From Parachlamydiales bacterium (GTDB taxonomy: Bacteria > Chlamydiota > Chlamydiia > Chlamydiales > Rhabdochlamydiaceae): a stretch of 39,384 bases of DNA. Of the stretch, positions 25,174 to 29,968 are shown one piece after another. The first letter of the stretch is position 1. Each line of letters opens with the position of its first letter. The position numbers were made by a program, and so were the translations under genes. A model generated the notes under the pieces. That model searched no databases, had not been told where the DNA came from, and saw nothing but the letters and a program-made list of their open reading frames with translations. Location of the stretch: positions 1 to 39,384 of the forward strand of contig DAIDHO010000011.1 of the NCBI GenBank assembly GCA_027459675.1, written 5' to 3'.

Positions 25174-25321
25174 AAACTACCTTTAGTGGCGTGAGAAGCG
25201 GCCAAAATAGATTTAACACGACCCCGATTTTTTTCGCTACATATACTGGCGATGATCTGAAACTTTAATGTGATAAAGGTGTCTATTTCATACACTTTTC
25301 TTCAGAGAATGATGGAAAAGA

Positions 25322-25369
25322 CCTCTTGCTTAAGCTAAAGTTTCGTCTGAACTTTAGTTTAAGCAAGAG
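25322..25369. repeat. Copy 3 of the dispersed element, as a 20-bp inverted repeat
   Basis: The arms at 25323-25342 and 25350-25369 pair over 20 bases with one G-U pair and a seven-base loop (TCGTCTG). The left arm repeats the 18-base unit of 5005 exactly and the right arm carries one change (AGTTTAAG for AGCTTAAG). It sits 18 bases past the stop of the minus-strand glycosyltransferase and upstream of sctJ, so it can serve as a terminator or a transcript-end stem. Confidence 0.85.
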
Positions 25370-25387
25370 TTACGCAAGTAGTCTAAA

Positions 25388-26338
25388 CTATTTTTCAAAT
25401 AACCAGGAAGGGCCTACTCCGAACTCTCCTTGGAGATAATCCCGAAGGCCTTGAATAATAGCCCGATATTGTTTGAGTTTTTCTTCCTTCTCTTGGATTT
25501 TTTCTTTTCGTATTATTTTTAACAGTTGGACTTGGACTTTTTTGATCCATAAGAGCTTTTGATAGTGCCACAGTTCAGGGTGGATGAGCTGACGAAAGAG
25601 CCTCTTTTTTTCTGCAGGCGAGCAGTTGCGCTCAATCCAGAGAAGGCGACCACGCCACCAAAAGTATTTTTTGTGAGGACTTCCGCCGATAAAGGAAGCA
25701 GAGACTTTATGGAAGAGTCGAGCATTATAACACACTTCCACCCCAAATCCTGCTTTTTTTGCCCGCATGGCAAAGTCTGCTTCCTCCCAGAATAAAAAAA
25801 ACTTTGTTTCTAAAAGACCAATTTTTTCAAACACTTCGCGTCGAATAAAAAGGGCACAGCCACAGACATAGTCCAACGATTCAGAAGTTCTAAATCCTTT
25901 TTTAGATCCCAGTCCTATGAGTTCAAAATCGCCCTTTTCGCTTTTCCATATTCCCCCTAAATGATCCAGACATTCAGGATCGGAAAATCGAAGAGGATAG
26001 CCCCCCCACAGGCCTACCTGAGGATTATTTTCCGCACTTTGGATAAAGGCTTGTATCATTTCGGCATCTGCAATGGTATCATTATTGAGCAACAGAATAG
26101 CATCGGCTTTGCTTTTTAGAGCTCTTTGAATTCCCACGTTATTCCCACCAGCATATCCTAAATTCCTACCCGTCTCAATCACGAGGACGTGAGGAAACTG
26201 GTTTCGAATGGCTGAAGCCGATCCATCATGAGAACCATTATCGACTACAATGATCTCTGGATGCCCTTTTAATGAATCAAGGCAGGCAAGAGTATCGGAT
26301 TTTCCGTTCCAATTTAAAACCACTACCATCACCTTCAT
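25388..26338 (-). CDS. GT2-family glycosyltransferase (rhamnosyltransferase-like)
   Basis: A cytoplasmic or membrane-associated GT-A glycosyltransferase of 316 residues. The N-terminal VVVLNWNGKSDTLACLDSL and the ETGRNLGYAGGNNVGI segment near residue 55 are typical of the WbbL/rhamnosyl group. The metal-binding acidic site is LLLNNDT at residues 82-88, and FFLFWEEADFAMRAKKAGF near residue 180 holds the acceptor-site ED pair. The C-terminal 60 residues are strongly basic and helical, probably membrane-contacting. Its start overlaps the heptosyltransferase stop by four bases, so both act on the same envelope polysaccharide or lipooligosaccharide. Confidence 0.87.
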   Translation of the reverse strand: MKVMVVVLNWNGKSDTLACLDSLKGHPEIIVVDNGSHDGSASAIRNQFPHVLVIETGRNLGYAGGNNVGIQRALKSKADAILLLNNDTIADAEMIQAFIQSAENNPQVGLWGGYPLRFSDPECLDHLGGIWKSEKGDFELIGLGSKKGFRTSESLDYVCGCALFIRREVFEKIGLLETKFFLFWEEADFAMRAKKAGFGVEVCYNARLFHKVSASFIGGSPHKKYFWWRGRLLWIERNCSPAEKKRLFRQLIHPELWHYQKLLWIKKVQVQLLKIIRKEKIQEKEEKLKQYRAIIQGLRDYLQGEFGVGPSWLFEK

Positions 26339-29170: not shown

Positions 29171-29355
29171 TACCAATTGTAACTCGTGCTCTGTGAAGAA
29201 AATTAAGAGTCTGCTATTCAAGCCTTGAAAATTCATTCCCCCCTCTTTCTTGAAGGTTTGCAGTTAGTGAAAAATTAAATTATTATAATTTCTACGCTTA
29301 TATATAAAATTTATTAAAAAATAAATTTACTAACAAAATAATTACAATTTTATGA

Positions 29356-29361
29356 TATAAT
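29356..29361 (+). promoter_or_regulatory. Candidate -10 box before the leader RNA
   Basis: TATAAT at 29356-29361 lies in an A/T-rich run after the hemH gene and would place transcription start near 29368-29373, just before the G-rich structured leader. The -35 position has no good match to TTGACA (only AACAAA-like bases), so the promoter is a candidate. The gap 29171-29355 otherwise shows nothing I can name. Confidence 0.45.
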
Positions 29362-29377
29362 TTATGTATTTTAAACA

Positions 29378-29501
29378 GGGCAGTCCTAAATACGTTATGC
29401 TAAGGGGGTGGGGCCAACAACCTCTAAAACCGTAGGGGACAGGTAAGGAGGAGGATCAACTTCTCCTAACTAGGTTTTTAGGACTTCTCCAAAAATAGGA
29501 G
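29378..29501 (+). ncRNA. Candidate structured leader RNA (possible riboregulator)
   Basis: The 130 bases before ATG 29507 can fold into a three-way layout. The closing stem P1 pairs AGTCCTAAA (29382-29390) with TTTAGGACT (29477-29485), a perfect nine. P2 pairs CCTCTA (29421-29426) with TAGGGG (29433-29438). P3 pairs AGGAGGA (29446-29452) with TTCTCCT (29461-29467). A fourth hairpin pairs CTCC (29487-29490) with GGAG (29498-29501), the likely Shine-Dalgarno of the next gene. CTTCTCC occurs twice (29460, 29484), so the purine strand and the Shine-Dalgarno have alternative partners. It does not match an RNA family that I recognise. Confidence 0.55.
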
Positions 29502-29506
29502 TTTTT

Positions 29507-29968
29507 ATGGCAATTCCCCAATATGTAATTGCAGCAAATCTGATTTCATCTTGTATATTTGATATCGTTACACCTACCCTTCTTGCAGGAATCGGAGGGG
29601 GGGTAGTAGGGAAATTGGATAACCGTAAGTACACATATGCAATTTCGGCCGTATGCATAGATTGGATTCATAAATTTATATATCCTTATTTAATCAAACC
29701 AGTTTTTATGAATGAAAAAAGCAATTTCCAAACAAAGATAATGGGGATTGGAGTAGGGTATGGCACAATGTGTGTGATTTCTTGGCTCGTCATTTATAAG
29801 ATCGTGCCCCGCATATTTAATGAAATCCAACAAAAAAGCTTCTCACAGGTTAGCGCAATCATGAAAGAGAATCCAATAGAAACTCTTACACTGCACAAGT
29901 TAGCTCTTCTTACAGCAACCCCTTCCCTTCTAGCAGTACTCAGGGAAATGAAGATTATCTCTTTTTAG
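29507..29968 (+). CDS. Orphan small membrane protein
   Basis: A 153-residue protein I do not recognise. Hydrophobic segments lie near residues 7-32 (ending in TLLAGIGGGVVGKL), 44-65 and 78-105 (MGIGVGYGTMCVISWLVIYKIV), and the last 25 residues are moderately hydrophobic. That suggests three or four membrane passes. There is no signal peptide motif beyond the first helix. It stands alone between hemH and the sufS end (opposite strand), with its own promoter-like site and a structured leader whose last hairpin covers GGAG five bases before the ATG. It could be a chlamydial inclusion-membrane-like or inner-membrane protein; neither can be shown. Confidence 0.65.
   Translation: MAIPQYVIAANLISSCIFDIVTPTLLAGIGGGVVGKLDNRKYTYAISAVCIDWIHKFIYPYLIKPVFMNEKSNFQTKIMGIGVGYGTMCVISWLVIYKIVPRIFNEIQQKSFSQVSAIMKENPIETLTLHKLALLTATPSLLAVLREMKIISF

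Follow-up and report, generated by a model that had tools for sequence, protein, structure and literature searches.

A structured leader before an orphan chlamydial gene as the probable remnant of a mobile palindromic element

The leader and its orphan gene

The stretch of DNA analysed here (the window, 39,384 nt) is contig 11 of the 1.25-Mb draft genome of a Parachlamydiales bacterium. A 336-nt gap in it, flanked on one side by hemH (ferrochelatase) and on the other by an orphan open reading frame (ORF) of 153 amino acids, holds the leader that is the subject of this report; beyond the orphan ORF, in convergent orientation, lies sufS. The features of the leader and its gene are as follows.

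29353–29361 (+): extended -10 promoter-like site TGATATAAT, a consensus match only
29371–29378 (+): TTAAACAG, a candidate left-hand copy of an 8-bp target duplication, identical to 29491–29498 at 5 of 8 positions and alone not significant
29379–29402 (+): putative left terminal inverted repeat GGCAGTCCTAAATACGTTATGCTA, placed by arm matrix score, including the P1 5' strand (29382–29390)
29421–29438 (+): hairpin P2, -5.2 kcal/mol, whose strands pair otherwise in the full-leader fold
29446–29467 (+): hairpin P3, AGGAGGAG-GATCAA-CTTCTCCT, -11.4 kcal/mol
29465–29488 (-): putative decayed right terminal inverted repeat AGAAGTCCTAAAAACCTAGTTAGG, placed by arm matrix and family model alignment, including the P1 3' strand (29477–29485)
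29487–29501 (+): 4-bp hairpin CTCC-AAAAATA-GGAG covering the Shine-Dalgarno (SD) sequence, -3.3 kcal/mol
29491–29498 (+): AAAAATAG, the 8 nt from the element edge to the SD core and a candidate right-hand copy of the target duplication
29498–29501 (+): SD sequence GGAG, 5 nt 5' of the ATG
29507–29968 (+): orphan ORF of 153 amino acids, predicted to encode a membrane protein (two or three hydrophobic segments)

The motifs on which the first-pass annotation built its reading are all where it placed them: the TATAAT at 29356, which is in fact an extended -10, the P1 strands AGTCCTAAA at 29382 and TTTAGGACT at 29477, CTTCTCC at 29460 and 29484, and GGAG at 29447 and 29498. Extended -10 sites number three in the window against 1.3 expected, and no -35 element for TGATATAAT was reported by the promoter scan; transcription of the leader, as judged from the promoter-like site, would begin near 29368. 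No intrinsic terminator made of P3 and the downstream GTTTTT was reported by the terminator scan. A candidate attenuator peptide from an upstream ORF, MLRGWGQQPLKP (29397–29433), was dropped, being without an SD and without conservation.

The orphan ORF, which starts at the ATG at 29507, has a weak coding signal (0.099, against 0.125–0.263 in the other genes), yet the best of its six frames. Its product has no match in Pfam, NCBIfam, PHROGs, the PDB or the phage, plasmid and viral collections, and no homologue in the relatives and the roughly 100 genomes of the order that were searched, where matches at E 0.009–0.5 were short, contained stops in most cases and were not counted as homologues; a single-sequence AlphaFold model was poor (pLDDT 47.8). 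Nor was a homologue of the leader and orphan gene as a pair found in those genomes. Among the relatives compared, sampled at one genome per species, no synteny is conserved downstream of hemH, even within the genus, and the closest relative, whose hemH is 71% identical, has different genes 3' of it. Because no gene order is kept there, no orthologous leader is available to align. That closest relative also carries, at L018 1511 and 2595 (G001:C43), a tandem pair of paralogous genes with hydrophobic segments whose upstream 130 nt are nearly identical and which possibly encode inclusion-membrane-type proteins.

Folding of the leader

The P1 helix lies beyond chance: one of 300 dinucleotide shuffles equals its nine Watson-Crick pairs across more than 80 nt. 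The overall stability of the fold is unremarkable: the whole leader has a z of about -1.8 to -2.5, and values equally low or lower occur in 34 of 600 contig windows of the same size. The contig scan reaches its lowest folding z, -4.8, elsewhere, in the 131 nt at 25284–25414 (+), which contain a strong inverted repeat, CTCTTGCTTAAGCTAAAGTT ... AACTTTAGTTTAAGCAAGAG, at 25320–25370 between two minus-strand genes.

When the leader is folded alone, P1 is nearly always formed and is worth about 10 kcal/mol. Once coding sequence is included it competes with other pairings, with a probability of 0.2 to 0.9 depending on the 3' end, and the SD is paired in both of the competing folds. P3, by comparison, has a probability of 1.0 at every transcript length that has both of its arms. 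The SD itself is covered only by the 4-bp CTCC/GGAG hairpin or, in longer transcripts, by coding sequence, and the cost of opening the start region, 4.2 kcal/mol, is the ninth lowest of 33 genes in the window. The earlier proposal that the SD is free only in some folds is therefore true but ordinary. Its companion claim, that the SD can pair with either copy of CTTCTCC, fails in the energy model, where pairing with the copy at 29460 was 0.0 at the transcript lengths modelled. Given a constant P3 and an ordinary SD accessibility, the exchange of anti-SD strands on which a translational switch had been postulated is not predicted.

Whether the leader might nevertheless be a cis-acting RNA switch (a riboswitch, a thermosensor or an sRNA target) that uncovers or masks the orphan gene's SD has to be weighed against these results. 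A stable closed domain directly 5' of the SD speaks for such a switch, and added coding sequence does lower SD accessibility while setting P1 against its competitors. The lack of predicted strand exchange and the low opening cost speak against it, however, as do the lack of a conserved leader-gene pair and of an Rfam family, and the terminal repeats of a mobile element, described below, already explain P1. A switch is accordingly regarded as quite improbable. An Rfam search of the leader at both thresholds returned only a chance match of 15.9 bits. Like the leaders of translational riboswitches and RNA thermometers, the leader is a structured 5' untranslated region (UTR) adjoining an SD, but it is without their conserved core, conserved gene context or predicted switch.

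A dispersed family of palindromes in related genomes

A DNA search with the leader in the 47 relatives gave mostly short AT-rich or SD-ATG matches; a match to AATAGGAGTTTTTATG in several genomes was set aside as a common start context with unrelated genes downstream; and the pattern GGAGGAG..CTTCTCC..TTTAGGAC had two matches in a contig scan, the chlamydial one inside a cytochrome oxidase subunit gene, and was attributed to chance. A covariance model of the lone leader, by comparison, gave a weak match in the same genus (G002:C9:151122–151294), a site where a 26-bp inverted repeat (GGGTAGTCCTAAATATGTAATGCTGG ... CCAGCATTACATGTTTAGGACTACCC) ends in sequence that matches positions 29378–29401 of the window. 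A search of the 47 relatives for the arm pattern then found 21 sites, against seven with a reversed control, many of them as inverted pairs, and BLAST added further copies. The result is a family, GGTAGTCCTAAACATGTAATGCTR, that is dispersed, palindromic and MITE-like. Inverted pairs of the 24-nt arm, 79–178 nt from end to end, occur in G002, G004, G008, G031 and G022 (87 nt in the last), and the folds of the extracted elements run from one end to the other, with energies of -35 to -101 kcal/mol.

Judged by their sequences, these GGTAGTCC palindromes bear the marks of a MITE family. Perfect 8-bp target duplications flank three of them (L125, L127 and L129: CTTTTTCG, AATTTTTT and TGAGTTTT), and the flanks of four more match at 6 of 8 positions. 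Three copies in G004 are 91–94% identical at unrelated loci, and related genes that lack the element occur in that genome, namely a GroEL-like gene (68% identical) and acpP (80%). No complete autonomous element with the family ends was found in the genomes searched. Sister palindromes of about 160 nt with ends GCGCAACTTCTCATAAAGTTGAGG and a partly shared interior were also seen (L110, L118 and L093 in G010, and L102 525–684 in G007); the same interior is matched eight times in G010 and once in G007, there upstream of acpP.

Several observations link the family to the insertion sequence IS1. A single arm in the genome to which the window belongs (G000:C5:31919–31943, 37 bits) lies 23 nt outside a remnant of an IS1 transposase (PF03400, G000:C5:31966–32079; E 2.7e-4 in the genome search and 5.8e-5 for the fragment alone), arm and remnant having been found by independent searches. 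The transposase remnant has the same terminal repeat as the window element, which itself is without a transposase. A 309-nt element in G002:C9 (L121 2693–3001) has both GGTAGTCC-type ends and a C-terminal fragment of an IS1-like transposase, the Pfam match being weak (E 0.07), and may be a transitional form linking an insertion sequence to the short palindromes. Target duplications of 8 bp are within the known size range for IS1. Better-preserved IS1 copies in G003 and G013 carry different ends, so an autonomous partner is not established.

The placement of the palindromes is distinctive. A start codon lies 5–33 nt from one element edge in 10 of the 11 other paired copies (such proximity holds for 27% of the intergenic bases of the window), and 8 of 12 have their first SD-like motif starting 5–9 nt beyond the edge, compared with 9.7% of control positions (p about 3e-6), figures that come from post hoc tests with base rates from the window only and with related copies treated as independent. 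All eight scorable aligned members with one clear neighbour turn the same strand toward that gene, and in the relatives' members the SD lies outside the hairpin. The window element has the same geometry, with the SD at 7 nt and the ATG at 16 nt past its edge. Single IS-type arms have no such placement. A blind search of about 0.8 Mb with the family model brought in 13 new, more diverged palindromes: a start follows downstream within 36 nt in about four of them and within 54 nt in another two, and seven have none. Within the GGTAGTCC subfamily the placement is therefore strong; outside it, the tendency is weaker.

Short, non-coding elements dispersed in several copies, with terminal inverted repeats and palindromic over nearly their full length, are known as the Correia elements (PMC10969869), the QMITEs of Coxiella (PMC5896051) and the REPINs (PMC3116915), and the Correia elements of Neisseria have been mapped mostly immediately upstream of genes (reviewed in PMC10969869). 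The present family shares these traits but differs in its end sequence, in its 8-bp duplications with an IS1-type link and in the setting of its edge 5–9 nt from an SD. It is apparently undescribed, no report of a GGTAGTCC family in Chlamydiota having been found in the open-access literature.

The two ends of the element change together. In the 24-bp closing stem of ten aligned elements 95% of the pairs are standard and nine pairs are changed on both sides, a result that none of 500 shuffles matched; double changes number 13 against 3.3 expected, and sliding the partner strand abolishes the signal. This much of the earlier proposal is supported: a structured 5' UTR element, with P1 as its closing helix, that stops just short of the SD; and in the family with which it shares ends the closing stem covaries. 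Covariation of this kind could come from RNA-level selection as well as from terminal repeats correcting one another, and does not decide between the two. Related genes in G008 (L160 5525–5690) and G031 (L132 1829–1907), which are 42% identical (MDG..KEG.SVKE...), each have a palindrome at the same place before the SD with different arm sequences, a situation that reflects either more than one insertion at a single site or arms that have changed in concert. The differing arms are hard to read as plain decay.

Origin of the leader

The case for the window copy as a family member is carried by its ends. An arm matrix built from 31 arms and scored at 78,722 window positions ranks the left end (29379–29402) first, with 21.3 bits against 4.7 for the next position, and the arm agrees at 17 of 20 bases. 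The right end (29465–29488, minus strand) ranks 23rd of the 78,722, with the nine core bases AGTCCTAAA intact and scattered matches around them. Run on 301 bases, the family model aligns to 29379–29488 by the ends alone, with 11.5 bits; in an 850-kb search at E 0.5 the window was not among its matches. Between the ends, P2 included, there is no similarity to the interiors of other members, and the element (112 nt) contains no open frame of note. The candidate target duplication, TTAAACAG/AAAAATAG, matches at 5 of 8 positions, against 8 of 8 in three relatives, and in the window's own genome the family is represented only by this element and the one IS1-linked arm. MITE families often share their ends only. 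With the interior unrelated and only the ends kept, membership of the window copy in the GGTAGTCC family is likely, not proven.

A rival account would make the left arm alone homologous, a lone decayed IS end, with the right strand of P1 a product of chance. Single arms are indeed common in G026, one exists in the window's genome, and the right arm here is weak. Set against this are an exact 9-base inverted core at the expected distance and an SD 8 nt beyond it, which fit a two-ended element, together with the rarity of such a helix among the shuffles (1 in 300). A lone end would then be an improbable source of the leader.

In a further account, the palindromes may be a domesticated or mobile 5' UTR RNA module kept for an RNA function, be it mRNA protection, ribosome standby or insulation, with the window copy a diverged member still doing that job. 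Stem covariation at nine pairs, the positions adjoining SDs, the shared strand toward the gene in all scorable members and the related genes of G031 and G008 with different arms at one place all speak for such a module. Near-identical terminal repeats could, however, covary by transposition or gene conversion alone, more than half of the diverged blind matches (7 of 13) are without a nearby start, and the interior has been lost in the window copy. As an account of the window leader, retention for an RNA function seems unlikely.

The best explanation is that a short, palindromic mobile element, a MITE with IS1-like ends, inserted between the promoter and the SD of the orphan gene and that the leader is what decay has left of it; this origin is considered probable. 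On this account a palindromic MITE would have inserted between the two signals, the insertion being tolerated because both were left intact; the element would then have decayed, leaving P1 as the remnant of its terminal inverted repeats. If transcribed in the 5' UTR, it would form a closed hairpin domain in which P1 encloses P2 and P3 and which ends 8 nt before the SD, so that the SD would stay largely usable. What remains of the hairpin may be an inert or mildly mRNA-stabilising 5' UTR, a passive effect with no switch. Leaders of more than 100 nt are not rare in chlamydiae, having been mapped for 111 of 437 mRNAs in C. pneumoniae (PMC3333780).

In light of this origin, a puzzling orphan leader becomes one example of a dispersed family of mobile hairpins in Chlamydiota. 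Its position next to ribosome-binding sites, mostly in the sense orientation, is the interesting and unexplained part. A bolder reading, possible though rather doubtful, is that of a transposable, sense-oriented hairpin with a preference for inserting one target duplication 5' of an SD and with a stem maintained by RNA-level selection. Such a hairpin would supply unrelated genes in intracellular chlamydiae with ready-made leaders as it spreads, and the window element would be an old and diverged copy. More broadly, if further genomes show the same precise placement next to ribosome-binding sites, it would point either to an unusual target preference or to a selfish element that hands out 5' UTR structures.
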